Assembly: GCA_035946615.1 (NCBI GenBank)
Contig: DASYZB010000009.1
Location: 1-64,000, forward strand
Direction of reading: 5' to 3'
Source of the DNA: Verrucomicrobiia bacterium
Lineage (GTDB): Bacteria > Verrucomicrobiota > Verrucomicrobiia > Limisphaerales > UBA8199
Length of the DNA: 64,000 nucleotides
Shown here in pieces: positions 26,272-53,009 of this stretch. A program made the position numbers and the translations under genes. Every line of letters starts with the position of its first letter. Within the stretch, counting starts at the first letter, position 1. The notes below the pieces were generated by a model that had not been told where the DNA came from, did no database searches, and saw only the letters and a program-made list of their open reading frames with translations.

Positions 26272-29200
26272 TTAGAACTGGCGCACGCGATAAAACCGCT
26301 GCGGACCGGTGGCAGTCGTGTCCAATAGGTAATGCAAGGCGCCGTCCCCTTTAAGGGTGGTAAGCGAAATCCAGTTCGACGGGTTGAGTGAAGTGCTGTA
26401 TTCGAGCGCGTAATTGCTGCCCACCTGGGTCTGAACCAAAACGCTAAACTGATTGCCTGAACGGGTTGGACGCAGCAGATGTGGCAGGCCAAAGCGGTTG
26501 CCTTCCAGCAGCAGCGTATGGGCGCTACCGGCGGCGATGGCGACCACGTTCGAGGTGCCGGCCGGGAAATCGCACTGGCCATTCCAATCGTTGCCCCAGC
26601 AAAGGATGGTGCTATCGGCCTTCAGCACGACGGTATGCCCGCTGCCGCCCGCCGCGGCGATGGCATTGGTCAAAGGCTGCGGCGGCTGGCATTGGCCCTG
26701 AGAGTTATCGCCCCAGGCGACCAGAGTTCCATCGGCTTTGACGGCCAGACTGTGATACTCTCCCGCGCCGATGGCCACGACCTTGGCTAAACCGGCCGGA
26801 ACAATGGACTGACCCACGAAGTTCCCATTGGCATCCGTGTTTTCACCCCAGGCAACCACGGTTCCATCCGAGCGCAACGCGAGGCTGTGACTGCCTCCGG
26901 CAGCGATGGCGATGACATTGGCCAAGCCGGCGGGAGGAATCGCTTGGCCCAGGCTGTTATCGCCCCAGCCCACAACTGTGCCGTCTGAGCGCAAGGCCAG
27001 GCTGTGCCAGGTGCCGGCGGCAATGGCGATGACATTGGTCAATCCGGCGGGTGGCGTGGCCTGGCCGTCGTAATTGGCGCCCCAACCCACCACCGTTCCG
27101 TTGGCCTGCAGCGCCAGGCTGTGATAGCCGCCCCCGGCAAGGACCAGCGGGTTGACCAGGGTATTGGGAACGTTGCATTGGCCGTCATAATTCTCGCCCC
27201 AAGCCAGAATCGAGCTGTCGCCGCGAAGGAGCAGGCTATGCCAGGAGCCTGCGGCGATAGCGACGGCGTTGGTGGCCACGAGTGACACATTGAGTTGGCC
27301 CAGCGAATTGTCGCCGCGACCCACCAGCGGAACGATACCCAAATACGCGCCGGAACTGAGAAGCGATCCATAGGCGTTGCTGATGAGCACGGTGTAGGTG
27401 CCGCTATCCAGAACACCGGCATTAGGAATTGACAGGGAACTCGATGTGGCGCCAGGAATGTTCACGCCATTGAGCTGCCACTGATATGTCAGGACGGGCG
27501 TGCCATCGGCGACGACGCTGAAGGTGATGGGGCCGCCGGCAATGATGCTATTGCCGGTGGGTTGCCGGGTAATGAATGGGGCTGTGGGTCCAGCCACAAA
27601 GCTCACCTGGTCGAGCCACGCGGTATCGCTTCCGGCAGTGCCGGAACCGTTTTTGGCGTAAACCCACTGCAGGGTTTGAAGACCGGCCGGGAGATAAACC
27701 TGCTGCAAATTCCAATCGACTTCGCCGGAGATCGTCACGGCATTGTTCACGCCCGGGGCCACGTCACTAAATGTAAACGTATCCCCATTGGCTTGGGATG
27801 ACACCTTCCACCAAAATGAGAGTGTGCCGGGGCCGGTAACGGTTGTTGTCAGGGTGCTCCGCTGATTGTTGCCGATGAAATAGCTTCGGGCCGAAGCGAT
27901 ACCGTCATGCGAGACGGCGGCCTGGCCGAACCAAGGCGTTGTGCTGATGTCGGTGGTCCAGGTCAGGTTGCTGTTATCGAGTGCGAAAGGTAATGGCAAA
28001 GTTTGAATCACGGTCAGCGCGGCGACGGGGCTAAGGGCGGAGCCGTAGGAATTGGTGACCACTGCCGAATAAGCGCCGGCATCGTTGGTCGTAACGGCCG
28101 CAATGGAATACGAGCTGAGAGTCGCCCCGGCGATGTTGGCGCCGTTCTTGCGCCACTGATAGCTAAATGGGGCAATGCCCGTGACGTTGAGTGTAAAGGT
28201 CGCCGGTTGGCCATTGATTAACGTCAGGCTCGCAGGAACAACCCCGCTTACCGTGGGCGGTGGCAAGGTCGCGTTATAGGCGACTAGCGCGAAATCCTGG
28301 TCCAAGGGCGAGCCGTTGTTGGGCACGCCATCAGAGTTAATGTTGGCGGCTGTGACGGCTATTGTCACGAAGCCGGAATTGCCGGCAGGCAGAGACACGC
28401 TTTCCACGTTGTCCCTGAAGTCGGCGCTGCCACCGGTGACCGAGTAGCGGCCATTAAAGTTGTTCCCTTTGTAAACATTGTTTCCAACATAGACGGTGAG
28501 ATCGAGGTTGTTGTTATAGGCGTTGCCAGCCGTGTTGCCGGGCGCGTCCGTCCATGCGAGGGTGACCCGAAAGGGTTTGGTGGGGTCGGAAATCGCGTTG
28601 GTGAAATAACGCGCCTGGCCCGTTGCTGTGAAGAGGTCGGCCGGTAGTTCGTCACGCAAAACCCGCGGTGTGGCGTTATCGAAAGCCATGCTCAGGTTCA
28701 CCTCGCCCATGCCTTCGTTATCCGACCAGAGGGTATCATTGGCATTGAGGCCCGTCATATAGCGGGCAGTATTCATCAGAAAGGCCTTGGTCATGGCTGG
28801 GCTGGGCGGATTGGTGAAGTTATTGATGAAGTACTGGCGCACCAGGGCGGCGGAGCCGGCGGCCCCGGGCGTTGCCTGGCTGGTTCCCGAACAAGAGGTG
28901 TAGAATTGCTGACCGAGCGGCCAGAACAGCGAGTTGTTTGGGCCGCCAGATACCCGTGAGCCGTTAAAACAGGGATCGGCCGTACCCGTTGGGCCGGGAC
29001 TGGGCGCCTGGGCGACGCCGCCGCTAACGTGGGTGCCGGGGGACATGATGTCGGGCTTGTGCCGAAGGTCACTGCACGGACCGCGACTCGAGAAGAAAAT
29101 CACATCGTTGGCGCTGTCGGCGCCGGTATCGTCGATGCCGCCGCCGTCAGGTCCGCCGAAAGGCTGCACGTTTTCACCCGCCCCGACAGTGATGACGTTC

Positions 29201-30750
29201 TTCCCTGTCCCCGGAGAACTGACGGTTTGAGAGCCGAATTCACCGTCGTTTCCGGCGGCGAACACAATGCACATCTCCTGATTGCCAGGCGCCGAGATTG
29301 GGGCGCCGGAAGGTTGAGCGTCGCGGACCAGGGCATCATATTCCTGGGAGTCCACATTGTATTCGCCAGGAACGCCGCCGCCCCAACTATTAGCGCTGAC
29401 GCGCGCACCGTTCTGGTAGGCTGCCGATTGAACGGCTGTGAAGTCCGGGAAAGTGTAATTAACCGGATCGAAAATTACCGTGGAGCCGATTTTAACGAAC
29501 GGGCAGACACCGAGACCGTAATGGAAGCCGGAAGAATCCGTGAAGGGGAAGCCAATGGGCAAATCATTGTATCCGCCAATAATGTGGGCGTTTATGGTTC
29601 CATGGCCATCACAGCCAACAAGCGTACTATTTGGATTGGGAGTTCCTTCGAGCCGGTTGTAAATCACGCGGCTGTTCTGGGTCGTATCACCCTTGACATA
29701 GAGTCCTGGGTGATTCGGCGTCGTCGTCCCGTCATCGACGCCACTATCCGTAACATCCACCGCAAAGCCCGAGGTGGAAAATTGGCCCTGGGAGAACCCA
29801 ACACCCTGGAGCCAGTTGAGATAACCGGGGCCGCTGGGGACGTTCCCGGTCAGATTCCCGGCCAAAATCTGGTCCTGTCGTTCGCATAACTTTTTGGGGA
29901 CGAAATACGGCTGGATGGATAAGAGGTCGGGCTGTGCCGCAAGCTGGGTGAGGGTGGCGGGGTCGAGCCGCGCGATGACATTTAAATATCCAAGAACGGC
30001 GTTTTCCTTCTTGAGTGGTTCGAGTTTGAGCTGATCGATCAATTGTAACGTGGCCGCATTAGCGTTGTCAGCAACTAGTTGGATGGCAAAAAGGTCTGTC
30101 CCAATCTGGCGCGGATTGCCCTGGGCATCGATCGTTCGGGCAGCCGGGTGAATCTTATACTCGGCAAGAAAGGGGCCGTCCCATTGGACATGCGGGGCTG
30201 TGGCTGCCAAACTCTGGACCTTAGCGATAGCGCCAGAATCGCCATAAATCAAGTATGCATTTTCAGGGATATACGCGACGATTTGAACTCCAGCCGCAAC
30301 CAACTCATCGCGCCAGGCGGGTTGGACCGGCCCTGCAAATTGCACCAGGTGCAGATGTTTGCCGGAGAATGAGCCGGCTGTTTTGCGAAGGGCCTGGACC
30401 TCGGGCTTGCTGGTATCCAATGGGGCGGCGTGCAATTCAATAATGTTGTACTGGTCGCGCGACTCGATGCCGGGTTGATTCAGCACGTCTGGAGCAATCT
30501 GAGCCGCTTCATAGAGTTGGTAGCTGCCGTAATCGGCTATGAGCTTGGCGCCCTGAGCTTCCAACTTGGCGCGCAGGGCCGGGGTATGGACTTCGATCTT
30601 GTGAGTCGCGAGCGAGATTGGCTGACCCCCTCCGGCGGCGCCGCTCGCTGCCACACTGCTCGATAGCAGCACCCACAGACCCGCAGCGCAGAGGGAATGT
30701 TTGAAATACGTATAAGACCAGCCAAGGCAGGATAGTTGGACCTTTGACAT
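26272..30750 (-). CDS. Very large secreted S8 (subtilisin-like) serine peptidase with Ig-like and RCC1 repeats
   Basis: About 1492 residues from the ATG at 30748-30750 (a GTG six codons earlier is less likely). A signal segment (AAGLWVLLSSSVAA) is followed by a long pro-region, then an S8 core with Asp335 in FAVDVTDSGVD, His383 in CDGHGTINAHIIGG, oxyanion Asn501 in FAAGNDGEFG and Ser624 in SCSGTSQATPG. After it come a pro-protein-convertase-like beta domain, two Ig-like domains (PPTVSGVVPASLTL and the PTAPFITRQPTGN region) around a beta-sandwich domain, and seven RCC1-type repeats of the form VVAIAAGxxHSLALRxDGTVVAWGDN (about 26490-27330). It ends in a ~58-residue module shared with two other secreted proteins here. 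All catalytic residues are intact. Confidence 0.92.
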   Translation of the reverse strand: MSKVQLSCLGWSYTYFKHSLCAAGLWVLLSSSVAASGAAGGGQPISLATHKIEVHTPALRAKLEAQGAKLIADYGSYQLYEAAQIAPDVLNQPGIESRDQYNIIELHAAPLDTSKPEVQALRKTAGSFSGKHLHLVQFAGPVQPAWRDELVAAGVQIVAYIPENAYLIYGDSGAIAKVQSLAATAPHVQWDGPFLAEYKIHPAARTIDAQGNPRQIGTDLFAIQLVADNANAATLQLIDQLKLEPLKKENAVLGYLNVIARLDPATLTQLAAQPDLLSIQPYFVPKKLCERQDQILAGNLTGNVPSGPGYLNWLQGVGFSQGQFSTSGFAVDVTDSGVDDGTTTPNHPGLYVKGDTTQNSRVIYNRLEGTPNPNSTLVGCDGHGTINAHIIGGYNDLPIGFPFTDSSGFHYGLGVCPFVKIGSTVIFDPVNYTFPDFTAVQSAAYQNGARVSANSWGGGVPGEYNVDSQEYDALVRDAQPSGAPISAPGNQEMCIVFAAGNDGEFGSQTVSSPGTGKNVITVGAGENVQPFGGPDGGGIDDTGADSANDVIFFSSRGPCSDLRHKPDIMSPGTHVSGGVAQAPSPGPTGTADPCFNGSRVSGGPNNSLFWPLGQQFYTSCSGTSQATPGAAGSAALVRQYFINNFTNPPSPAMTKAFLMNTARYMTGLNANDTLWSDNEGMGEVNLSMAFDNATPRVLRDELPADLFTATGQARYFTNAISDPTKPFRVTLAWTDAPGNTAGNAYNNNLDLTVYVGNNVYKGNNFNGRYSVTGGSADFRDNVESVSLPAGNSGFVTIAVTAANINSDGVPNNGSPLDQDFALVAYNATLPPPTVSGVVPASLTLINGQPATFTLNVTGIAPFSYQWRKNGANIAGATLSSYSIAAVTTNDAGAYSAVVTNSYGSALSPVAALTVIQTLPLPFALDNSNLTWTTDISTTPWFGQAAVSHDGIASARSYFIGNNQRSTLTTTVTGPGTLSFWWKVSSQANGDTFTFSDVAPGVNNAVTISGEVDWNLQQVYLPAGLQTLQWVYAKNGSGTAGSDTAWLDQVSFVAGPTAPFITRQPTGNSIIAGGPITFSVVADGTPVLTYQWQLNGVNIPGATSSSLSIPNAGVLDSGTYTVLISNAYGSLLSSGAYLGIVPLVGRGDNSLGQLNVSLVATNAVAIAAGSWHSLLLRGDSSILAWGENYDGQCNVPNTLVNPLVLAGGGYHSLALQANGTVVGWGANYDGQATPPAGLTNVIAIAAGTWHSLALRSDGTVVGWGDNSLGQAIPPAGLANVIAIAAGGSHSLALRSDGTVVAWGENTDANGNFVGQSIVPAGLAKVVAIGAGEYHSLAVKADGTLVAWGDNSQGQCQPPQPLTNAIAAAGGSGHTVVLKADSTILCWGNDWNGQCDFPAGTSNVVAIAAGSAHTLLLEGNRFGLPHLLRPTRSGNQFSVLVQTQVGSNYALEYSTSLNPSNWISLTTLKGDGALHYLLDTTATGPQRFYRVRQF

Positions 30751-31145
30751 AAAAGCTTCTGTTTGCACGATGCGTAGAAGCAGCAGCGCTGCGGCCCCAC
30801 GCGCACTCTACTTAAAGGCCAGGGCGCGCACAGAAGCAAGCCAATTCGTTGACGCGGAGAAATTCCCTCGGTGTCCTTCGCCGCATGATTCAGCGACCTG
30901 GTGCATGGAGATAATGGCAAAAAGTCTCGGGTGCCGGACTCGTGGGTAGGGTCGAATTCCAGGAACCCTGATCAATTCAATTCCCGAGCAAAAACCGCAA
31001 GAATACGAGGACTCGCAGAAGGCTCGCTCGTCGCTCCGAAGTGGTAAGGAAAGCTGTTAAGGGAATGTACGGACTTGACCGTCTTTGCCGTGGACTATTT
31101 ACTTTACGGTCAGTATGCGGGCACAGACGAAGAAAGATCATTCGT
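30751..31145. promoter_or_regulatory. Divergent promoter region between two large secreted-protein genes
   Basis: This 395-base gap separates the subtilase (minus) and the Calx-beta protein (plus). On the plus strand TTGACC (31075-31080) with TTTACT 17 bases later (31098-31103) is a weak sigma70-like pair, about 40 bases before the start. GAAGAAAG is the best ribosome site. No coding frame is convincing. Confidence 0.35.
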
Positions 31146-33269
31146 ATGAAATCGAAACTGCATAAACTCTGGGCCTTGCACGGCAGCCATCTTTTTTTTG
31201 GGTTTTTTTTCGCAGGAGCGTTAGGCGCGTCGGCCCAAATAGCCACCAACTTTTCAATGCCCGTGGTCACGATCTGGGCAACGGATCCTTTGGCCTCGTG
31301 GGCGGGCAAGACCGGCACGTTCACCGCGGTGCGAGCGGGTCCAACCAACGCGACTTTGAATATCTACTACAGCATTGTGGGGACGGCGACGAATGGCGTG
31401 GACTATACCCAAATCGGGAACTGGGTGACCATACCCGCAGGAGAACGAACTAATTCGATAGCGATTGACCCGATTAATAACGGCCAAAGCGCCACGGAAA
31501 CGGTGAAGTTGCACCTGACGGCCTCGCCGTTGATGATACCGATTAACTATATCATCGGAGAGCCGGATACAGCGGTGGTCTATATCACACCCACGTTCAT
31601 GACCAATATTCCGCCGACGGTTGCCATCACCACACCGCCTGGCGGGGCGACCTTTGCCGCCCCGGCCAATATCCCGGTCTGCGCCTATGCGTTTGATCCG
31701 GATGGTTACGTTGCGACCGTCGAGTTCTTCGCCGGAACAACCAGCCTGGGGATTCGGACCAATAACCCGGCAAGCGCCAGCCCGGTGAACCCGTTCTGCC
31801 TGCTGTGGAGCAATGTCCCTCCCGGCAACTATAGTCTCACAGCCGTGGCAACGGATAATGGCGGCGCATCGACCACATCCGACCCGGTAAATGTCAGTGT
31901 CAAAACCGTTCCGCCGCCCACCAATGTTCCGCCTATCGTTAGCCTGATTTCTCCACAAAACGGCGCCACATTTTTTACTCCGGTTGATATTCGATTATTT
32001 GCCAAAGCAGCCGACCCGGACGGGTCTGTAAGCAATGTGGAGTTCTTTGCAGGAACTACCGATCTGGGGCCCGGCATGCCGTTAGTTCTGGACCCCCCGG
32101 GTGTGGATGGATACGACGGGCTGGTCTATGTCCTGGTTTGGTCTAATGTCCCGCCAAGCAATTACACACTCACGGCCGTGGCAACCGACAATGGGGGGGC
32201 ATCAACCACCTCTGCGGGGGTCAACATCTCGGTGCAGACCGGGCCGCCCCCGCCGCCCCCGACCAATTACCCGCCCTTGGTGCGCATCAGCAGCCCGCCC
32301 AATGGCGCGGTATTTAGGACGCCGGCAGATGTCCCGATCTTTGCCTACGCAAAGGACTCGGACGGCTCGGTGGCGTCGGTGGAGTTCTTTGCGGGCACTA
32401 ACGACCTCGGTGCGGGCCAGACCATCTGCCTTACGGCGAGCACACCCATGCTCTATTGCCCATCCAACGTGTTTTTCCTGGTCTGGTCCAACCCGCCAGT
32501 TGGACTGTACCCGCTGACGGCAGTGGCCACTGATAACGGGGGAGCCATGTCCACCTCTCCGCCGGTCAATATCACTATTCTTCCATCGCCGCCGCCGCCG
32601 ACCAATCGTCCGCCAATCGTGAGCATCGCGGCCACCGACCCGCTGGCGATTGAAGGGACCAATTGTTGGCCCTGGGTTGGGTTGACCAACCCGGCGCCCA
32701 CGTGGGGTAACTGGGCGACGGCCATCTCGTTCCGCCGGTTCTTTACCAATTGCGGGCCAAAGGATGCCACGTTTACGGTGCGCCGGTTCGGTGATACCAA
32801 TGACGATTTAGTCGTCAGTTATGATATCGGCGGCAGCGCCACCAACGGCGTGGATTATGTGCCGCTCGCCGGTTCGGTGACCATCCCGGCGGGCGAAAGG
32901 CGCGCTCAAATTACCGTGGTGCCCCTGGATGACGGCCCGCCGGATATCACCAGCACGGTGGTGCTCAAGCTCGCGCCCGGCACCAATTATCTGATGGGCT
33001 TCCCGACTGTGGCCGGAGCGGTCATTCTGGATAGCGGCTCCCCGCGCCCAATCACCGGGATGTTGCCTGGGGATTGTTTCAGTCTGAGCGCCGGAGGCCC
33101 GGATGGCGCCTGGTTCCATATCGAGTATTCGACGGACTTGTTGCGCTGGACACCGATCTGCACCAATCAGGTGGTGGATGGTTTGATCAATTTTGTCGAT
33201 CCGGACGCCGGCGCCGACTCCGCCCGTTTTTACCGGGCAGTGCCTGAGAGCGGGCCGCCGTCGGAGTAG
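31146..33269 (+). CDS. Secreted Calx-beta / Ig-like repeat protein
   Basis: About 707 residues from the ATG at 31146. A signal peptide (HLFFGFFFAGALGASA) leads into a Calx-beta-like domain (IVGTATNGVDYTQIGN...TIPAGERTNSIAIDPINNG), three tandem Ig-like domains each starting PPTVAI/PPIVSL/PPLVRI and containing DxDGxVxxVEFFAGTxxLG and YxLTAVATDNGGAxTTS, then a second Calx-beta domain (GGSATNGVDYVPLAG...TIPAGERRAQITVVPLDDG). Proline-rich linkers (PPPPPTN) separate domains. The last 63 residues match the C-terminal module of the subtilase and the 882-residue Ig-like protein. It is probably a surface or matrix protein; Calx-beta folds often bind Ca2+. Confidence 0.9.
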   Translation: MKSKLHKLWALHGSHLFFGFFFAGALGASAQIATNFSMPVVTIWATDPLASWAGKTGTFTAVRAGPTNATLNIYYSIVGTATNGVDYTQIGNWVTIPAGERTNSIAIDPINNGQSATETVKLHLTASPLMIPINYIIGEPDTAVVYITPTFMTNIPPTVAITTPPGGATFAAPANIPVCAYAFDPDGYVATVEFFAGTTSLGIRTNNPASASPVNPFCLLWSNVPPGNYSLTAVATDNGGASTTSDPVNVSVKTVPPPTNVPPIVSLISPQNGATFFTPVDIRLFAKAADPDGSVSNVEFFAGTTDLGPGMPLVLDPPGVDGYDGLVYVLVWSNVPPSNYTLTAVATDNGGASTTSAGVNISVQTGPPPPPPTNYPPLVRISSPPNGAVFRTPADVPIFAYAKDSDGSVASVEFFAGTNDLGAGQTICLTASTPMLYCPSNVFFLVWSNPPVGLYPLTAVATDNGGAMSTSPPVNITILPSPPPPTNRPPIVSIAATDPLAIEGTNCWPWVGLTNPAPTWGNWATAISFRRFFTNCGPKDATFTVRRFGDTNDDLVVSYDIGGSATNGVDYVPLAGSVTIPAGERRAQITVVPLDDGPPDITSTVVLKLAPGTNYLMGFPTVAGAVILDSGSPRPITGMLPGDCFSLSAGGPDGAWFHIEYSTDLLRWTPICTNQVVDGLINFVDPDAGADSARFYRAVPESGPPSE

Positions 33270-33322
33270 GGTTGCATTGGCGGACCTGCGTTCATGTTAC
33301 GGTGAACATGAACGCGGCGCTT

Positions 33323-34123
33323 TCAGAGCCGCCGCAGCCAGACATTGCGGAATCGCACCGGGCATCCGTGCCCGCCAAAGGCCAGAGGGCCTTCGCTGAT
33401 TTTGTGTTTATATTCGGGCAGGATGCGGTGGCCGGTCTCGCCATGAATCTCCTCGTTGAGTTGCACCAGGATGCCGTTATGGAAAACCGTCACGCGGGCG
33501 GGAGAAAGGAGTCTCTGGCCATCGAACTTCGGCGACAGAAACACGATGTCATAGGTTTGCCACTGTCCCGGCGGACGCGTGGCATTCACCAGGGGCGGTG
33601 TTTGGCCGTAGATGGCGGCGCAGGCGCCATCGGGATAGATTTTCTCATTATAGGAATCGAAGATTTGGATTTCATAGAGGCCCATGAGCATGACGCCGTT
33701 ATTGCCGCGGTTATACCAGGGGCCTTCAAAGCCGGCGGGCGCCATCCATTCGATGTGAAGCTGAATGTTGCCGAAGCTTTCCCTCGTCGCAAAGTGGCTG
33801 TTGCCTGAGATCAGGCAGCCATCGGCCACCTTCCAATCCCCGAGCGGTTCCCAACGCGAAACATCCTGGCCGTCAAAGAGCATGACGGCATCCGAAGGCA
33901 TTGGCGCGGGTGGCCCAGCCTGACCCGGGTCCACGCGCTTGGGATTGGGCCGGTCCGGGTCGTGGACCAGCCATTGGCACCAGGGAAGTTTGGGGGTGTC
34001 TTTATAGCCGTAAACACCCGAGCCATCTTTCGCATAAACCAAGTCGGCCCCAATTGCTGCCTGCGGGACAACCAACCAACTCACCGCGACGGCTGCCAAT
34101 GAGAAAAAGAGAGTCGCTTTCAT
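33323..34123 (-). CDS. DUF1080 / 3-keto-disaccharide hydrolase family protein, secreted
   Basis: About 266 residues from the ATG at 34121-34123 (MKATLFFSLAAVAVSWLVV), which gives a clean signal peptide; an in-frame extension to 34177 adds basic text only. The fold signature is VMLFDGQDVSRWEPLGDWKV, FGNIQLHIEWMAP, NRGNNGVMLMGLYEIQIFDSY and the C-terminal GHGCPVRFRNVWLRRL, i.e. a concanavalin-like jelly roll. Members act on 3-keto sugars or act as lectins. It lies 50 bases after the PilB-type gene and may share its transcript. Confidence 0.9.
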   Translation of the reverse strand: MKATLFFSLAAVAVSWLVVPQAAIGADLVYAKDGSGVYGYKDTPKLPWCQWLVHDPDRPNPKRVDPGQAGPPAPMPSDAVMLFDGQDVSRWEPLGDWKVADGCLISGNSHFATRESFGNIQLHIEWMAPAGFEGPWYNRGNNGVMLMGLYEIQIFDSYNEKIYPDGACAAIYGQTPPLVNATRPPGQWQTYDIVFLSPKFDGQRLLSPARVTVFHNGILVQLNEEIHGETGHRILPEYKHKISEGPLAFGGHGCPVRFRNVWLRRL

Positions 34124-34173
34124 CGCCCGAAGCTTGTGCCCAACGCGGCTGGCCTGGCCAGTCAAAAAGGGCC

Positions 34174-35391
34174 TCACATTAAATCAGCGGCCACGACCCG
34201 GATGATTTCCTCGAGTGTGGTCTGGCCGCTGAGGGCGCGGCGCAGGCCATTCTGCCAGAGGGTGCGCATGCCCTGTTGGACAGCGATTTCTTCAAGAGCG
34301 GAGGTGGGCATTTTTTTGAGGATGGCTTCTCGGAAAGGTTCGTTGGCCAGCAACAACTCGCTGACGGGCATGCGCCCGGCGAAGCCGGTGTTGTTGCATT
34401 GCTCGCATCCTGCCCCCTGGCGGAACTGGGCCTCTGCGACGAGTTCCTGCGGAGCCACTTTAAGCTGGCTTGGCGTGGGCTCGTAGGCCTGGAGGCAATT
34501 TGGACAGTTGCGCCGGACCAGGCGCAGGCCCATCACGGCCAGCACGCTGGAGGCGAGCATGAACGGCTCGATTTCCATGTTGATCAGGCGTGTAAAAGCA
34601 CCTGCCGAGACTCCCGAATGGATCGTGCTAATGACCAGGTGCCCTGTCAAACCGGCCTGCACCGCAATAGCCGCTGTTTCGGCATCACGAATTTCCCCGA
34701 CCATGATGACCTGTGGGTCCTGCCGCATGATACTCCGTAACGCCATCGCATAAGTAAATCCCTGGCTGGAGTTGATTTGGGTCTGGCTCACCATCGCGAG
34801 GTTGAATTCGACCGGGTCTTCGACGGTGTTGATGCTGACGCTTGCGCCGTCCCGCTGGATGATATAGCACAAAGCCGAGTACATCGTGCTGGTCTTGCCT
34901 GAACCGGTTGGGCCGGTAAACAGGAGCAGGCCGCTGGTGCGTTTGAGCACCCGCAGCAGCCCTTGAAGCGTCGATTCTTCGAAATCCAATGACCCCAAAT
35001 CAAACCGCCGGTCGCGCGGGTCGAACAGGCGCGCAACGATCTTCTCTCCACGGGTCGTCGGGAAAATAGAGACACGCAACTGCACCCCCTCCAGTTCCGG
35101 GCCGCCCAGGGCGGTCCCGTCCTGAGGCATGCCCACCTGATAGGTCACCAGGTTGGCCATGACCTTGAAACGGGTCGAGATTTTATCGAGCAACTCGAGT
35201 GGCAGATGGGCGATCTCAGTCAGCACTCCGTTGACTCGGGCCCGAACGGCAATCGAGTTCTCCCATGGTTCAATGTGCAGATCACTGGCGCTGAGCCGAA
35301 TCGCATCCTGGACCAGGCAATTGACCAGCGTGCTGACCTCGATTCCCTGGGCCGCTTCGTCCGATTGCAGATATTGAATCGTGTAGCTCAT
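34174..35391 (-). CDS. GspE/PilB-type secretion ATPase
   Basis: About 405 residues from the ATG at 35389-35391 with GAGGTG directly upstream. ASDLHIEPWENSIAVRARVNG is the N2 domain; Walker A is GPTGSGKTSTMYS, the Asp box NTVEDPVEFNL, Walker B RQDPQVIMVGEIRDAETAA and the His box LTGHLVISTIHSG. A C4 zinc site (CPNC ... CEQCNNTGFAGR) marks the GspE/PilB branch rather than PilT. The usual ~150-residue N1 domain (T2SSE_N) is absent, so it is a short form. It powers assembly of a type IV pilus or type II pseudopilus; no pilin or platform gene is adjacent. Confidence 0.92.
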   Translation of the reverse strand: MSYTIQYLQSDEAAQGIEVSTLVNCLVQDAIRLSASDLHIEPWENSIAVRARVNGVLTEIAHLPLELLDKISTRFKVMANLVTYQVGMPQDGTALGGPELEGVQLRVSIFPTTRGEKIVARLFDPRDRRFDLGSLDFEESTLQGLLRVLKRTSGLLLFTGPTGSGKTSTMYSALCYIIQRDGASVSINTVEDPVEFNLAMVSQTQINSSQGFTYAMALRSIMRQDPQVIMVGEIRDAETAAIAVQAGLTGHLVISTIHSGVSAGAFTRLINMEIEPFMLASSVLAVMGLRLVRRNCPNCLQAYEPTPSQLKVAPQELVAEAQFRQGAGCEQCNNTGFAGRMPVSELLLANEPFREAILKKMPTSALEEIAVQQGMRTLWQNGLRRALSGQTTLEEIIRVVAADLM

Positions 35392-35524
35392 AATCACCTC
35401 GCGTCTCCGTGGCCTGATGGGCTGGATTTCGCTCACAGGAGCATGGTCATGTAATCCAACCGATGCAAAGGCGAATTGTTGGCCAGGTTGGCAAGGAACT
35501 TGCGACATCGGATGGAAGCCAAAT

Positions 35525-36121
35525 ATGCTAGAGCTTTATTGGTTGAGTAGGAATTTGTGGCGAAAGGACGTGTTTCGCTGGCTTTTAATGGTCAGTTTGG
35601 CCGCGTTGGCAGGGATCGCCGCCGGTCATACCGTCATTGCGTCGGTTTCGGGGTCCGTTTCAGTCGTAGATGGCACCAGCATGGAGCCCACCTACGAGCC
35701 TGGCGCACGCATCTATACTGCACCCATCTCTGGCCCACTCCTTCGCGGCGACATCGTCCTGGTGGATGATGGCAACAAGGAATACGCTGTTAAGCGGATA
35801 GTCGGTTTGCCGGGAGAGACCTTGGAGATTTGGCGGGGGTATGTTTTCATTAATCGCAAGATGCTGATTGAAGGATACTTGCCAAAATATACATTCACCT
35901 TCCCTGACGAACGGAACCAAAGGTCTGTCTTTAAACTACGCCCAGGAGAGTACTTCGTTTTGGGTGATAACCGGCCATCGAGCGCTGATAGCCGGGAATA
36001 CGGCCCTATCAAACGTGAGAGCATCAAAAGCCGGGTGCCACTGCCCGAAACCACTCTGAGGGCGACTTTTGGCGATTTCGCGCTGCCAGCCCCCGGCAAA
36101 CGGACAATCCGTGCCCTTTAG
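35525..36121 (+). CDS. lepB: Signal peptidase I
   Basis: 198 residues from the ATG at 35525. One N-terminal membrane segment (FRWLLMVSLAALAGIAAGHTVI) precedes the S26 core: box B with catalytic Ser52 (DGTSMEPTYEPG), box D with general-base Lys90 (YAVKRIVGLPGE) and box E (YFVLGDNRPSSADSREYGP). It removes Sec signal peptides on the periplasmic face. It is divergent from the PilB-type gene, with 133 bases between them. The many large secreted proteins in this window are its likely substrates. Confidence 0.92.
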   Translation: MLELYWLSRNLWRKDVFRWLLMVSLAALAGIAAGHTVIASVSGSVSVVDGTSMEPTYEPGARIYTAPISGPLLRGDIVLVDDGNKEYAVKRIVGLPGETLEIWRGYVFINRKMLIEGYLPKYTFTFPDERNQRSVFKLRPGEYFVLGDNRPSSADSREYGPIKRESIKSRVPLPETTLRATFGDFALPAPGKRTIRAL

Positions 36122-36207
36122 GACAGCCCCTGCACGAGAATCGGCCACTCTTTGTCCAAATCCTGGCCATAGCGGTCTCCGCTGCTTTGCGGATAGACAG
36201 CGCATCA

Positions 36208-36513
36208 TTAGCCATTTCTTCGCTGCTCGTCAAACATAAACAGAGTTCGACCCGCCGATATGCAGTCGTGGTGGCGCAATTTAGTGGTCTGGGTGCTGCG
36301 CCGGCCATCGACCCAAGTCCCATTCTTTGAGTTCAGGTCTTTAAGAACGTAATCCGGCCCTTCTCGCGAAATAACAAAGTGACGCCTCGAGAGCGCCGCG
36401 TCGTTGATGGTCACATCGGCTGATGCATCACGGCCCACAGCCAATGACCCCTCGCCAAGGTCCCAGTGGCTGGCCATAATCCCGTCCTCGCCAAGCAAAC
36501 ACAGGCTTGCCAT
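36208..36513 (-). CDS. Single-domain FHA protein
   Basis: 101 residues made almost only of an FHA domain: the phospho-Thr binding loops are GRDASADVTIND, SRRHFVISREGPDYVLKDLNSKNGTWVDG and the final ILF/FMF strand. GAGGAG lies 5 bases before the ATG. FHA modules read Thr phosphorylation, often from Ser/Thr kinases that govern secretion systems; no kinase gene is in the window. It lies tail to tail with lepB (86 bases between the ends). Confidence 0.9.
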   Translation of the reverse strand: MASLCLLGEDGIMASHWDLGEGSLAVGRDASADVTINDAALSRRHFVISREGPDYVLKDLNSKNGTWVDGRRSTQTTKLRHHDCISAGRTLFMFDEQRRNG

Positions 36514-36575
36514 ATTACTCCTCTGTTAAAGACGAAGCAGCATCGTAGAGTATTCGATTGGAACGGGATGGTTGA

Positions 36576-37655
36576 ATGAATGAGAATCGAGAGGTGATCA
36601 CCAAATCTTCATCGCCGCGCGGTCGGGGAGCGCTCAGCAACCCACCAAACCGCTTTGAAACACTTCGACTCGAGCGCGATGAAGACTGGAATCCCGAGGA
36701 GGAGCCCTCCCCGAAGACACAATTTCTGCGGGACCTGTCGCAAACGATTATCACTTACAACGACAGTCCCGATATTCCGTTCAAGGCCAGCATTAATAGC
36801 TTCAGGGGATGTGAACACGGATGCTCCTATTGCTATGCACGGCCCACGCACGAGTACCTGGGCTTCTCAGCCGGCCTGGATTTCGAGCGCAAGATCATGG
36901 TCAAAGAGAATGCGCCCGAACTGCTGCGCAAAGAGCTCTCTTCACCCAAGTGGAAACCACAGGAGCTGGCAATGAGCGGCGTTACGGACTGTTACCAGCC
37001 GATCGAACGCAAGCTTCAAATCACCCGGCGCTGTCTGGCGGTGTTGGCCGAATTTCGCAACCCGGTTTCTATCATCACCAAGAATGCCCTGGTCACCCGC
37101 GACCTGGACCTTTTGAAAGAGTTGACGGCGCACCGAGCCGTGCATGTGAACATCTCCATTACGACGCTGGATTCGGAGTTGGCGCACAAACTGGAACCCC
37201 GGGCCGCCTCACCGAGGCAGCGCCTGGAAGCCATGGCAACCCTGGCCAAGGCCGGGGTGCCGGCGGGCGTATTGGTGGCGCCGGTGATCCCGGCGATCAA
37301 CGACCATGAAATTCCATCGGTCCTGGCCGCGGCCAAAGCAGCGGGAGCCAGTTGGGCCTACACCGAAGTCCTGCGCTTGCCGCTGACGGTAGCGCCGATA
37401 TTCCAGGAGTGGCTCGAGCGGAATTTTCCAGATCGGAAAGACAAAGTTCTGGGCCGCATCCGCGCGATCCGCGGCGGCAAGCTCAATGACCCCCGCTTCG
37501 GTTCCAGGATGCGAGGAGAGGGGATTTTCGCCGATCAGATCTCGCGAATGTTCCATGTCGCACGTCGCAAGGTTGGCTTGCCAGAGGAGGGGCCTGAATT
37601 GTCCACAGTGGCGTTCCGCCGGCCAGGAGGGCCACAGTTGGCCCTTAATCTCTGA
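36576..37655 (+). CDS. PA0069-type radical SAM protein
   Basis: 359 residues. The radical SAM cluster motif is CEHGCSYCYARP (C-x3-C-x2-C) after SINSFRGC. The leading NRFETLRLERDEDW is typical of the PA0069/SplB-like group. YTEVLRLPLTVAPIFQEWLE and the C-terminal region follow the family order. These proteins are annotated as DNA-repair-like photolyases by distant similarity, but the substrate is not known. It is divergent from the FHA gene, with a 62-base gap. Confidence 0.9.
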   Translation: MNENREVITKSSSPRGRGALSNPPNRFETLRLERDEDWNPEEEPSPKTQFLRDLSQTIITYNDSPDIPFKASINSFRGCEHGCSYCYARPTHEYLGFSAGLDFERKIMVKENAPELLRKELSSPKWKPQELAMSGVTDCYQPIERKLQITRRCLAVLAEFRNPVSIITKNALVTRDLDLLKELTAHRAVHVNISITTLDSELAHKLEPRAASPRQRLEAMATLAKAGVPAGVLVAPVIPAINDHEIPSVLAAAKAAGASWAYTEVLRLPLTVAPIFQEWLERNFPDRKDKVLGRIRAIRGGKLNDPRFGSRMRGEGIFADQISRMFHVARRKVGLPEEGPELSTVAFRRPGGPQLALNL

Positions 37656-37904
37656 GCTGACCCCTCATCCGGATGCGGGGGGCTCCAGATCCCAGATTCG
37701 CCTCGCTTTTCGCAGCCTCGCAGGGGAGGCTGCTCCCGTCTTGTTCTTGTGGAAGGGGTGCAGCCAGGTTAACCTTTGAACGTGAAACTCGAGTCTGTCA
37801 TTCATTCAGACCCCGACATCCTGGGCTGGCGGCTTTGTCATCTGTCCGGCCAGGGACCCTCGTAGTGGTAAGCTGAAATAGCTGGCTCGTTGTCCGCCGT
37901 TGGG
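37656..37904. other. Gap between convergent genes, nothing recognised
   Basis: About 249 bases between the radical SAM gene and the Ig-like gene. I see no gene, strong hairpin or repeat match. Confidence 0.4.
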
Positions 37905-40553
37905 CTATGGTCCAATTAAGATGCGGTAGAAGCGCTGTTGTCCCATCGGAGTTGTCGGGTCCACCAGAATGAATGAGTTGGCCGTTGGATTATTGGTTAC
38001 AAAAAGTGGCGACCAACCAGCCAGGTCGGTGGAGACTTCCAGGGTGTAATTCTGATTGGAGCCGCCCGTGATCTGCATCGAGAAGCGGCCCGCCAGCAAG
38101 GCCGGCTGACTAAGGACGGGCGCAGGGTTGATGGTGATGCCAACAACTTTATTGGTCATTGCGAAGTTTGCGTCCATGGCCTGGACTTTGAAATTGAATA
38201 ATCCGCTGGCCGTGGGCGTGCCGGAAATAAGGCCATTGGGATTGATCGATAATCCGGGCGGCGGATTAGCCGAGCCCAGGGCCAGAGACCACGTGTAAGG
38301 CGTTTGCCCGCCGGTCGCCCCGAGTTGAGCATTGTAAGCCGCGCCCACGTTGCCATTGGGCAATGAACCGGTGGTGATGACCACCGGCGGCAGCGGGGGA
38401 TTTACAATGGTAAGGGCTAACCCGTCCAGTTCGACGCGGTTCGCAGCGGCGTCGGTCAGCACCACGTCAAAATAGGTGGTGCCCGTGATGATAGGCGTGC
38501 CGGAAAGAACGCCGTTGGCCGCCAACGTCAGATTCGGTGGCAACGGAGCGGAAAAGCTCGGGATAGACCAATTATACGGGGCCGTTCCGCCCGTGGCTTG
38601 GAATGACTGGCTGTAAAAGACGTTGTTGGTGCCGTTGGGCAGGAAGCCCGTGAGAATCTGTAGTGGGCCGCCGCTGATGTTCAACAAAAGGCCTTGGTTT
38701 GCCGTGTGGCCGTTGCCGTCGTCGGCATGCACGCTAAAATTGTAGGTCCCGGACGTGTTCGGATTGCCGTAAATTTCGCCGTTGGGAGCAAAGCTCAAGT
38801 TGGGGGGGAAATTCTGAGGGTCATTTAAGGACCAGTTGACGTTACCGTTGCAACTCGAAGCGGCCAGGTACACATCGTAATAGGTCCCGACCTGTGCACC
38901 GGGCAATGACGTGGTATCGATTTGAATTCCATTGCAGAGTTGAACGTTGAAATTAGCAGTCGCGTTGTTGTTATTAATCGAGACGTTTTGATTGCTAGGG
39001 CATTGAAAATTACCGTTGCCCAGAAGGGTATCCAGGCTGTCACTGCCGCCGCCGCAATTGACACCGACAGACCAACTTCCATTGCCCAAAGTAAATGAGT
39101 AATTTCCGTTGGCATCGGTATCCGTATAGAGGTTAAAACTGGCGCCATTAATGGTCGCATAGGCATAGACCCCTACGCCTACGATATTCACCCCATTGGC
39201 CTGCACGTTGCCAGTGAGGTAATTGGTCGCCAGAAGGGCGGTGAAGTTGGCCTGCACAGCCGTCCCGGAGTTAATGTTTGTTCCGCCATTTTGATCAAAG
39301 CTCGGTTGTGAAAACATATAATTGGTGGGACCCGTGTCGCTGCTGACTGAAATCCACCATGGATCATTGACGCCCAGCCCACCCACCACCGCCGCGACAT
39401 AATTGCCGTTTGCGTCGGCGTAGCCGTCGGTTTCATACAAGTAGTTGTTGTTGTCATTGGCGTACATATCAATACCGGGCAGGGCAATCCCCAGACTGTC
39501 TTTCACGCTGCCATAAAAGAGCGCCGTTGCCTTGGGCAAGCCGAGGTTAACCCCGGTCTGGCCGGCACTGGCGGTAGTACTATTCTGAAGCACGGCATAT
39601 CCGTGCACGAGCAGGCTCGTGCTATCGGCCTTGATACCCCAAACGCCGGATTGCACGCCGACTGTGAAATTGCCATTAGTATCGGTAAAGCTGACCCCGA
39701 GGAGGCCGTTGCCTTGGGCCGGCAAGAGAACGCCCGGCAGTCCAATGCTGGCATTATTGGCATCCGTCAGTTTGCCTGAGATGCTGGTTGTCGCCTTCAG
39801 GATTGTCAGATTCGTGGTGATGGTTTGACCACTGTTCAAGGTAAGGACTGGTGGCGCGGCGAAGTTGGCCAGATAATTACTCCTGAAGGCCACGGGCATG
39901 TAAGTCCCCGGTGGCGCTGGGATGCTATAGCCGCCCGAATTGTTCGCCACTACTCCGGCCAGTGGCGAGCCGCCCGGCCCATTTTTGCCTGCCCGCGGCG
40001 GCGGGAACAAGAGGACAACCGCATTAGGCAAGGTGGCACTGGTGCTGTTGCTAACCACGTTGCCAGTGAACTTTTGCGCATACGGCACATTGGTGACGCT
40101 GAGAAGATTGGTGATCGGCGAAAAATGGCCGCCCGGGCTGGACAGCTTGAACGCATATTTCCCGGCGATGTTCTGCATAAAGTCGCCGTTGCGGAAATTC
40201 AACCTGGCGGTGATTTGCCCTGCCGTCGCATCAGTGTCACCGGGGACGTTGAAATTCGTGATGCCACCGATCACCATGCCCGCCTGACCGTCAGTGAGAC
40301 TGAACTGCTGCACAAGCCAATCGCTGGCATCGACCACGCCATTGGTGTTGACGTCGAGGAATTTCTGCACGGTCACCGTTTCGGTGTTGGTCAAACCGCT
40401 CACCAGCAAGGTGATGGGTCCGTTGTAGGTGTTGCTGACGATGGCGGGGGTGACGGTGAAGGTGACCGCTGCGTGCAATGTTGGGCACAAGAGCAACCCG
40501 ATTTGGCACATGGCCAGAGTCAGGGCGTTTCGGAAGGATGATGTGTGTTTCAT
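37905..40553 (-). CDS. Secreted carboxypeptidase-regulatory-like / putative Ig (He_PIG) repeat protein
   Basis: About 882 residues from the ATG at 40551-40553 (MKHTSSFRNALTLAMCQIGLLL), a good signal peptide. The N-terminal part has a dockerin-like phrase FLDVNTNGVVDASDWLVQQF (Asp/Asn-rich, possible Ca2+ site). The middle has repeated carboxypeptidase-regulatory-like folds (TSISGKLTDANNASIG ... FTDTNGNFTVGV). The C-terminal third has three tandem He_PIG-type domains (LPNGNVGAAYNAQLGATGGQTPYTWS ... GLSINPNGLISGTPTASG). It ends with the module ending QQRFYRILIGP, shared with the subtilase and the Calx-beta protein. Likely a surface or matrix protein. Confidence 0.9.
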   Translation of the reverse strand: MKHTSSFRNALTLAMCQIGLLLCPTLHAAVTFTVTPAIVSNTYNGPITLLVSGLTNTETVTVQKFLDVNTNGVVDASDWLVQQFSLTDGQAGMVIGGITNFNVPGDTDATAGQITARLNFRNGDFMQNIAGKYAFKLSSPGGHFSPITNLLSVTNVPYAQKFTGNVVSNSTSATLPNAVVLLFPPPRAGKNGPGGSPLAGVVANNSGGYSIPAPPGTYMPVAFRSNYLANFAAPPVLTLNSGQTITTNLTILKATTSISGKLTDANNASIGLPGVLLPAQGNGLLGVSFTDTNGNFTVGVQSGVWGIKADSTSLLVHGYAVLQNSTTASAGQTGVNLGLPKATALFYGSVKDSLGIALPGIDMYANDNNNYLYETDGYADANGNYVAAVVGGLGVNDPWWISVSSDTGPTNYMFSQPSFDQNGGTNINSGTAVQANFTALLATNYLTGNVQANGVNIVGVGVYAYATINGASFNLYTDTDANGNYSFTLGNGSWSVGVNCGGGSDSLDTLLGNGNFQCPSNQNVSINNNNATANFNVQLCNGIQIDTTSLPGAQVGTYYDVYLAASSCNGNVNWSLNDPQNFPPNLSFAPNGEIYGNPNTSGTYNFSVHADDGNGHTANQGLLLNISGGPLQILTGFLPNGTNNVFYSQSFQATGGTAPYNWSIPSFSAPLPPNLTLAANGVLSGTPIITGTTYFDVVLTDAAANRVELDGLALTIVNPPLPPVVITTGSLPNGNVGAAYNAQLGATGGQTPYTWSLALGSANPPPGLSINPNGLISGTPTASGLFNFKVQAMDANFAMTNKVVGITINPAPVLSQPALLAGRFSMQITGGSNQNYTLEVSTDLAGWSPLFVTNNPTANSFILVDPTTPMGQQRFYRILIGP

Positions 40554-40987
40554 AAAGGTGGTTAGGCTGTCGGATTCGGAATCTCGGCGGCGTGAGAGTG
40601 GGGTATAGCGACAATCCCACACAATAGCACGAAGCCGAGGCCAAAACCGCACCTCTGCTTCGAAACTGGCGCGCCTGTTCGCCCTTTTTTGGGCAGCAAT
40701 TTCAACTCGCTGTCAATTGGAGCGCAGAAAATGTCTTTAGTCGAGCATTTTTGAGTTATTTATTGCGTCTGGGCTCGAATAAAGAAGAGAGATAAACGGC
40801 GAAACATACGAAATTACGCGGAAACCGCCTGATTCTTACGCGTATTTCGCGTACTTCGCGGTTTAAAAAAACCCTTTAAACAAGGTATTGAGACTAGATT
40901 AGAGGACTGGGGCAGTCCTAACCGCTCGGCGCGGACCTGAGTTGTCCGCGCTTGGCGATTAAGCCTGCTTGAGCCCGAGACAGCCGG
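40554..40987. other. Intergenic region with hairpins and a short repeat
   Basis: 434 bases between two minus-strand genes. A perfect stem GCGCGGAC/GTCCGCGC (40929-40951) lies just downstream of pnp and could end its transcript, although no U tract follows. TTACGCGTATTTCGCGTACTTCGCGG near 40837-40862 is a repetitive CGCGTA/TTTCGCG motif of the interspersed type. TGTCAATT around 40713 is TTGACA on the minus strand but no matching -10 was seen. No gene found. Confidence 0.45.
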
Positions 40988-50687: not shown

Positions 50688-53009
50688 TCACTCGTAGATT
50701 TCGTAAATAACGCCGTCCAAAACAAATTGGAGGTTTTGCCCCAACGCCAGCCAGGACGCCGCTTGCGGGTGGTTGCCCAGAAAATCAAAATATTCACGGG
50801 ACCCGAATTGGAGCCGGATATGCCGCGCCTGGGGAAAGTTTTGAACGATGGAATCGACCCAGCCGCTCTCGTTTCGGAAGAAGGTCCTGCCGGCGACAAA
50901 TCGGCTCTGTTGAGCAGAGTCAACCCGCGGCGTCTGGCTGGAATCTGCGGTTGAACTGAGAGCCGGTCCTCCCGGAGCAAGCCCATACCGGCGTTGGAAT
51001 GCTTGTCCTGCGAGCATTTGGGCAGGGGCGGCGGCATCGGCCATTTTAAGGGCCAGACTGGACTGAGCGCTGGCGACACCCGCATCGCCGCTTTGCTCTC
51101 GTGTGAACGTCTGCCAACTCCGCGCCGCATCCTGGCGCGCTTCAGGGTCCTTGCCAAACTCCTGCAGCAAGCGCAGCGGTGAGGGGACATCACGGCGGCT
51201 TTCATCTTCTGCTATCAAGTAGGCCGTATAAGGCGTAACGATTCCATACTTGCGCGCCAATTGCGTCACCTCATCCCGCAACTCGGAATTCTCGCCGTGA
51301 AGCCGAATCTCATCGAGCAAATAACCAACGCGGCGGGTCGCCCATAGGCGTGGAATGAAATCATTGCCGGAATTCTCTTGCGGGAAATTGCCTTCATAAG
51401 TGAATTTCCGCACCGCGCCATTGACAGTCCCTTCGAGGAGCATGGCTGAATCGCCATGGCCTGAGTAGCGCCCCACCAGAACCAGTTGCTCGCCTTTGAA
51501 CAGGTCAGGCAATGGTGACGGATAAAGCTGTTTGGTCTGCAGGCCGCCCGTGAACTGCAGCGCCGGGTTGGTCAGCACCGGTTCCTTTACCTTTTCAAAA
51601 AATGCCGACAGTTTGAATTCCAGGTCTTCCTCGGGCAGGACGTACTGGCTGGCGCCGCGCGTTTCCTCGGTTATCTGATCGAGCAAATGCGCATTCACGT
51701 CCGTCCCAATTCCGAAACAAAAAATGCGCGCCTTACCGGTGTCTTCGTCTTTGACATTGGTCAGGATTTGCCCTTCGTCGGTCGTCCCGATGGTGGGCCG
51801 GCCATCGGTCAGGAAGATCACCCTGAACGGGCGGTCTCCGGCGCCCTTGCTCGATTGCAGGCCAAGCGCTTGCTTCAGGGCGTCATCGATGTCCGTCGCC
51901 CCGATGGCTTTGAGGTCTTTGACAAACTCTTCTGCTCGCGTCCGGTTTTTCGCGTTCGCTTCGACCAACGAATTAAACAGCGGCTCAATGTCTGTCGAAA
52001 ATCGGATGAGTTCGAATCGATCACCGTCGTTGAGGTTTTCGACGCAGAATTCGAGGGCCTTTTTTGCCTGCTCGATCTTTTTGCCGGCCATTGAGCCGGA
52101 GGTGTCGAGCGCAAACACCACATCCTTGTTCACAATGCGTCTGTCTTTGGTATCGATGCCGGGCGAGGCCAGCAGCAGAAAATAGCCGTCCTCTCCTGCG
52201 CACTTATGAGTCAGCAAATTCAAGCCCAGTTCACCCCTCTCCGGCGCAAAGTAGAGGGCCAAATCAGCTTCGGGGAGCACATCGGTGGCCTCATACCCCA
52301 CCGTCGCGCGGTTAGGTCCGTTTCGTTTCACCTCGATCTTGTGGCTGGGTGAATAGACGGTTTTCAGCGGGCGCCTGGTCTCCAAATCCACCTTCACGCT
52401 GACCGTTGGAATGGGGCGGCAGGAGAACTTGTCCGCGCTCAGTGGCAGCAGAAAACTGACCAGGCCGTTGTCGGACTTCAATAGTTGTGTGTACGAGAGG
52501 GTAATGCGCTTTTTACTGTTCGGCTCGATTGGGAAGATGCGGACCTTAAAGACGTCCTGGTTGGCATATTCGAGCAGGGCGGGGTCACGCAGTTTGCGCA
52601 CAATCTCCTCGTAAATGTGTCGGGCCTTGCCGGCGGGCAGGAGTTCGGCTTCGACCTGTCTGCCATCAATTTCCATGGTAAACTTGTCAAGCTGCGCTCC
52701 CTTGGGGATTGGGAATACAAATGTGCCTTCGAGTCGCGCGTTATTGGGGTTATAAAACTCCTCATCCACTATCGTGACGGCGACCTGGTCGATGATGTGA
52801 GTGTTGGCCTTCACATAATCCACTTGCAGTGGCGCAAACACGTGCGGCTGCGGCCAATGCCACGGCGGCGAGGGAGGGGGAAGAGGGTGTGGCGGGACGG
52901 GTCCCGGCCACAAGGAGGAGTCCTCGATTATGATCAGGCCGGCGGCCAATGACGCGGTAATCGCGCACAGAAACCCGACCAGAACAGAAAATAGAATGCA
53001 CCGTTTCAT
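50688..53009 (-). CDS. VIT and von Willebrand factor A domain protein, exported
   Basis: 773 residues. A signal peptide (ILFSVLVGFLCAITASLAAG) and a proline-rich stretch precede the VIT domain (VTIVDEEFYNPNNARLEGTFVFPIPKGAQLDKF ... VRIFPIEPNSKKRITLSYTQLL), then a vWA domain with the MIDAS start DVVFALDTSGSMAGKK, the Thr in AIGATDIDDA and the Asp in FLTDGRPTIG. About 270 more residues follow, partly helical. Such proteins bind metals and partners at the cell surface; inter-alpha-trypsin-inhibitor heavy-chain-like architecture. It precedes the DUF5069 gene on the minus strand. Confidence 0.92.
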   Translation of the reverse strand: MKRCILFSVLVGFLCAITASLAAGLIIIEDSSLWPGPVPPHPLPPPSPPWHWPQPHVFAPLQVDYVKANTHIIDQVAVTIVDEEFYNPNNARLEGTFVFPIPKGAQLDKFTMEIDGRQVEAELLPAGKARHIYEEIVRKLRDPALLEYANQDVFKVRIFPIEPNSKKRITLSYTQLLKSDNGLVSFLLPLSADKFSCRPIPTVSVKVDLETRRPLKTVYSPSHKIEVKRNGPNRATVGYEATDVLPEADLALYFAPERGELGLNLLTHKCAGEDGYFLLLASPGIDTKDRRIVNKDVVFALDTSGSMAGKKIEQAKKALEFCVENLNDGDRFELIRFSTDIEPLFNSLVEANAKNRTRAEEFVKDLKAIGATDIDDALKQALGLQSSKGAGDRPFRVIFLTDGRPTIGTTDEGQILTNVKDEDTGKARIFCFGIGTDVNAHLLDQITEETRGASQYVLPEEDLEFKLSAFFEKVKEPVLTNPALQFTGGLQTKQLYPSPLPDLFKGEQLVLVGRYSGHGDSAMLLEGTVNGAVRKFTYEGNFPQENSGNDFIPRLWATRRVGYLLDEIRLHGENSELRDEVTQLARKYGIVTPYTAYLIAEDESRRDVPSPLRLLQEFGKDPEARQDAARSWQTFTREQSGDAGVASAQSSLALKMADAAAPAQMLAGQAFQRRYGLAPGGPALSSTADSSQTPRVDSAQQSRFVAGRTFFRNESGWVDSIVQNFPQARHIRLQFGSREYFDFLGNHPQAASWLALGQNLQFVLDGVIYEIYE

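Follow-up and report, generated by a model that had tools for sequence, protein, structure and literature searches.

The C-terminal module shared by three proteins of the window, which is the whole stretch of 64,000 nucleotides of DNA from a Verrucomicrobiia bacterium analysed here, is a good candidate for an undescribed sorting or anchoring tag, because it is found on more than 100 otherwise unrelated, mostly secreted proteins, sits almost exactly at the stop codon and usually ends in a proline. It may well represent an undescribed C-terminal sorting or surface-anchoring domain family of Verrucomicrobiota, a reading to which our analysis gives about an even chance. An earlier sequence-only reading of the same DNA had suggested a tag of this kind or a small adhesive beta domain, and its interpretation as a whole is partly supported. 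Little has been described of how Verrucomicrobiota export and retain their numerous extracellular enzymes. If the proposal is true, a module which sits on more than 100 proteins in a genome and is unnamed in the libraries would be a main address label of the exoproteome of the phylum.

The module in three window proteins

The sequence-only reading reported a terminal pattern common to three ORFs, and the ORFs and their alignment confirm both the pattern and its location (Table 1). In the three-way alignment of the last ~72 residues 12 columns are invariant (P, F-S, E, S-T, L, W and R-F-Y-R), and leave-one-out profiles regained the third window module at E values of 1e-4, 2e-3 and 6e-8. To avoid circularity a further profile was restricted to 70 modules from other genomes; it matches the three ORFs of Table 1 and none other of the 880 in the window, in each case at the C-terminus. 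The domains upstream differ as had been stated: Pfam finds an S8 peptidase with Ig and RCC1 domains in the first protein, Big_7 and Calx-beta in the second and carboxypeptidase-regulatory-like repeats in the third. The He_PIG domain ascribed to the third protein is not scored by Pfam; its repeats resemble He_PIG by eye.

Table 1. Modules and host ORFs in the window (E values are for the profile built from modules of other genomes).
Feature	Positions	Strand	Description
C-terminal module of subtilase/Ig/RCC1 protein	26275..26490	-	72 aa; tail ...RFYRVRQF, stop; E 1.9e-18
Subtilase/Ig/RCC1 host ORF	26275..30768	-	Signal-peptide-like N-terminus (heuristic), Peptidase_S8, Ig_3, RCC1 repeats (Pfam), module
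C-terminal module of Big_7/Calx-beta protein	33039..33266	+	76 aa including 7 extra residues; tail ...RFYRAVPESGPPSE; E 2.6e-15
Big_7/Calx-beta host ORF	31041..33266	+	Signal-peptide-like N-terminus (heuristic), 3 Big_7, Calx-beta (Pfam), module
C-terminal module of CarboxypepD_reg/He_PIG-like protein	37908..38123	-	72 aa; tail ...RFYRILIGP, terminal Pro; E 8.5e-16; AlphaFold2 models
CarboxypepD_reg/He_PIG-like host ORF	37908..40652	-	Signal-peptide-like N-terminus (heuristic), CarboxypepD_reg repeats (Pfam), Ig-like repeats, module

The conserved pattern of the module is Y-x-[VIL]-E-x-S-T-[ND]-L...W...D...RFYR. The W is kept in 99% of the copies and the Y in 71%, and besides the W the best-conserved stretch is RFYR. 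Hydropathy over 147 modules gives no transmembrane segment (the median maximal 17-residue value is 0.87, and values above 1.6 occur in only five), so the claim that the module has no membrane helix stands. The companion claim of no Cys fails for the Calx-beta protein, which has two Cys inside its module; Cys occurs in 30 of the 147 modules, in no conserved column.

Extent and distribution

The phenomenon is much larger than first reported. Searched with a profile of the three window sequences, the genome from which the window comes (5.6 Mb, 161 contigs) gives 67 matches, and with a 31-sequence profile it gives 110 at E ≤ 0.1. A scan of the Genome_contigs set with the three-sequence alignment gave two loci only. 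Across the phylum the module is present in 99 of 289 sampled genomes and in 62 of 153 genera (E ≤ 1e-5). The copy number in positive genomes begins at 1 and reaches 20 or more; these numbers are lower bounds, since scoring was limited to 20 candidates per genome. Another two genomes, to which L031 and L032 led (L032 carries the label Verrucomicrobia), contain 44 and 49 modules. No module was found in plasmids by tblastn of a consensus, and an alignment search in viral contigs gave no relatives.

That the module has no named domain is borne out, as none of 31 members matches Pfam or NCBIfam at E 0.1. A sequence search of the PDB gave nothing convincing (best E 0.08), and we found no published description of the module in the openly accessible literature.

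Position at the stop codon and the last residue

The copies end 0-6 residues ahead of the stop codon in 77 of the 86 cases read in the own genome and at most nine residues from it in all 72 cases from other genomes, both samples being biased toward high-scoring copies. Of 138 copies, 105 have 4 or 5 residues between FYR and the stop. The C-terminal enrichment predicted for a tag is therefore strong. This upholds the description of the module as short, strictly C-terminal and carried by many unrelated proteins, most of them exported as judged by a signal-peptide heuristic.

The remaining nine own-genome copies are internal or broken. At least two of the internal ones (L117 in G000:C21 and L128 in G000:C34) lie directly ahead of a domain resembling SUMF1/formylglycine-generating enzyme, in which the motif ...PGTFTMGSP can be read by eye, an arrangement which is the reverse of the C-terminal rule. 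These copies indicate that the module need not stand at the free end. The internal hits that the sequence-only reading associated with a plain structural repeat thus exist in the own genome, while among the 72 copies of other genomes there are none. One open frame of 553 codons is closed by a tandem pair of modules (G289:C32:6081-6518).

According to the main rival explanation the module is no more than a small beta domain of the adhesive or structural kind, binding carbohydrate or matrix or serving as a cap, which has been shuffled mostly to protein ends and needs no sorting machinery. We regard this as possible, with clearly less than an even chance. The internal and broken copies fit it, as do the W and Y, of a kind that many binding domains have; the absence of internal copies in other genomes does not, and the narrow spacing to the stop together with the conserved terminal proline would be unexpected for a shuffled binding domain.

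The preference for certain terminal residues is a feature that the sequence-only reading did not list. Proline is the last residue in 39 of 76 own copies (51%) and in 17 of 258 other long ORFs of this genome (6.6%; Fisher 5e-17), and for glutamine the counts are 15 of 76 and 12 of 258 (Fisher 1e-4), p-values which overstate independence because the copies share a common ancestry. A final proline occurs in 8 of 87 other signal-peptide-like proteins of the own genome and, outside this genome, in 42 of 71 module copies (59%). All four proline codons are in use, which indicates that the preference, or selection, acts at the protein level. The terminal residue persists although the rest of the copies diverges, with identities of mostly 20-35% outside this residue.

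Carrier proteins

A signal-peptide-like start was seen in 46 of 68 carriers and in 87 of 258 control ORFs, by a crude heuristic and with membrane proteins included among the controls. The carriers comprise enzymes (subtilase, GH18, GH9, kumamolisin-like, redoxin, arylsulfotransferase-like and glucose/sorbosone-dehydrogenase-like proteins), a multihaem-cytochrome-like protein, propellers (PQQ, RCC1, PD40, DUF5122) and LRR, Ig and cadherin-like proteins. The last three groups would suit an adhesive domain. It is difficult to reconcile that explanation with the redoxin, the peptidases, the propellers and the multihaem-cytochrome-like protein, for which there is no common ligand.

Multihaem cytochromes of the latter type usually act outside the outer membrane; the protein in question (L155, G000:C124) has MtrC/C7 domains and a C-terminal module. 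Two tandem PQQ-propeller paralogues (L101 and L105, G000:C55:80340-83417) are each closed by a near-identical module.

In the GH18 carrier the module follows directly after the catalytic part (...RDPLLQTIKQALATP followed by QLLSV...). A 42%-identical homologue from another genome of the class stops at this very junction (...RDPLLQTVRSAASVSR, stop) and has no module. Judged by this pair of sequences, the module appears as a clean suffix in one GH18 protein; suffix behaviour of this sort has been reported for PEP-CTERM (PMC3237569).

Predicted fold

AlphaFold2 models rest on 7-9 sequences. The isolated module of the protein at 37908-40652 was predicted with six strands at pLDDT 78 and pTM 0.63 (seven sequences), and a 164-residue construct which includes the preceding Ig-like domain kept the same strand order, although most of its module residues have a pLDDT of 62-77. 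In structural alignments FN3 and FN3-like domains rank first, with Z up to 7.9 and an rmsd of 2.3-2.5 over 68 residues, and several FN3 structures reach Z 6.5-7.5 over 64-68 residues. The matched ranges, residues 4-76 of 93 in TENCON and 8-79 in tissue factor, end at what we take to be FN3 strand F, which means that FN3 strand G has no counterpart in the module. The module is accordingly predicted to be a six-stranded beta domain with an FN3-like arrangement that stops after strand F.

Foldseek gave no match below E 0.05, HHalign against a small FN3 profile found no sequence relation (probability 1.7% over 13 columns), and none of the 31 members has an FN3 match in Pfam. With Z below 8, Foldseek above E 0.05 and a negative HHalign, the description "FN3-like without strand G" is a structural reading and not a statement of homology; such Z and E values can reflect a common arrangement. 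The module also differs from FN3 in being terminal rather than tandem. The all-beta fold with its FN3-like arrangement is a point in favour of a plain adhesive or structural domain.

The predicted fold leads to another explanation, in which the module is a donor-strand acceptor: the open RFYRV edge left by the missing strand G would be filled by a strand from a partner, so that the carriers are joined into a surface layer or to an anchor. We consider this unlikely, and likewise its further element that the terminal proline meanwhile keeps the edge from aggregating. Its attraction is that the fold seems to be without its last strand and has an edge-breaking proline at the end. Both AlphaFold2 models stop at the strand corresponding to FN3 F, as the structural matches do, and the conservation of RFYR and the enrichment of proline fall where the hypothesis needs them. 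The structural scores are nevertheless in the range of a common arrangement, there is no sequence relation to FN3, the models are shallow, and either strand A or the linker ahead of the module could complete the sheet. Chaperone-usher pilins offer a parallel, in that an Ig-type sandwich without the final strand would leave an edge open to a donor strand; the carriers of the module are instead enzymes and propellers, and the likeness is limited to the missing last strand in the predicted fold. We know of no donor protein for the module.

Comparison with known C-terminal tags

The substrates of T9SS, many unrelated proteins exported by Sec, end in folded beta domains of ~70-80 residues, which occur in many copies per genome and have no membrane helix. 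The module resembles them in being a predicted beta domain which closes many unrelated, mostly signal-peptide-like proteins. None of the 31 members has a profile match to Por_Secre_tail (PF18962, TIGR04183) or the gliding-associated tail (TIGR04131) at E 0.1, and the conserved pattern of the module differs. T9SS C-terminal domain structures are absent among the structure matches listed, which carries no weight against a likeness. In the own genome no Por_Secre_tail was found at E 0.1, and SprA_N was not found either, the SprA control being silent as well.

PEP-CTERM is likewise a lineage-specific homology domain at the C-terminus of many unrelated proteins with signal peptides, and it likewise behaves as a suffix. 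PEP-CTERM consists of a short PEP motif, a membrane helix and a basic cluster, whereas the module is a helix-free predicted beta domain of ~65 residues. The first PEP-CTERM sequences were recognised in Verrucomicrobium spinosum, where there are 65 (PMC1569441).

Two other tags were considered and rejected. For LPXTG/sortase there is no profile match, no helix and no LPXTG in the alignments. The architecture of GlyGly-CTERM/rhombosortase tags, a Gly-rich motif with a helix and a basic tail, is absent. The own genome has four rhomboid-like matches, every one under the TIGR03902 cut-off; three proteins that resemble rhombosortase below the family cut-off are located at G000:C132:78607, C35:41843 and C143:40319. 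As far as sequences can tell, the module is not PEP-CTERM, GlyGly-CTERM or LPXTG by architecture and not a known T9SS domain by profile.

The sequence-only reading would take a processing gene co-distributed with the module as support, and the exosortase gene (PF09721) was examined as a candidate. Exosortase is present in 214 of the 289 genomes (74%), among them all 99 with the module and also 115 of the 190 without it. The association gives Fisher values of 4e-17 by genome, 4e-10 by genus and 3e-4 within the class, and it is confounded by lineage, genome size and lifestyle. It is the point in favour of the hypothesis that exosortase or some other known C-terminal protease, of the PEP-CTERM, GlyGly-CTERM or LPXTG type, recognises the module as a substrate signal. 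This hypothesis is already largely refuted by architecture and we find it very improbable: the module has neither the transmembrane helix that defines such signals nor a PEP or LPXTG motif, exosortase occurs in many genomes without it, and the own genome has separate PEP-CTERM proteins, only seven of them above cut-off. Exosortase was rejected as the processing enzyme because the module does not have the parts that exosortase cuts. Secretin (PF00263) is uninformative as a partner since it is nearly universal (282 of 289 genomes). No cognate gene was identified among exosortase, secretin, T9SS markers and rhombosortase.

Proposed role

Against the sorting or anchoring function proposed here stand the internal or broken own-genome copies and the fact that no machine was found. 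If the proposal is right, the carrier would pass the inner membrane via Sec and the module would fold in the periplasm. A common partner in the outer membrane or at the cell surface would read the folded module, its final strand (RFYRV) and exposed carboxy end included, and the carrier would then be exported and/or kept on the surface. The logic would be that of the T9SS C-terminal domain and not that of a cleaved transmembrane tag.

That Verrucomicrobiota possess an export or surface-assembly system of their own, in which a G-strand-less FN3-like domain with a Pro/Gln end addresses at least 100 proteins per genome and a putative partner supplies a strand or reads the carboxy end, is rather doubtful, though conceivable. 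The patchy distribution of the module allows phylogenetic profiling for a cognate machine, as was done for exosortase, and the module directly marks candidate surface proteins.

Other genes in the window

A VIT + VWA protein is encoded at window positions 50691-53009 (minus strand), its C-terminus carrying neither the module nor an obvious tag; across other bacteria the C-terminal tags of this family swap for one another (PMC3237569). Between the module proteins, at 34177-36118, the genes for a T2SSE (type II/IV secretion ATPase) and a signal peptidase S26 lie head to head.
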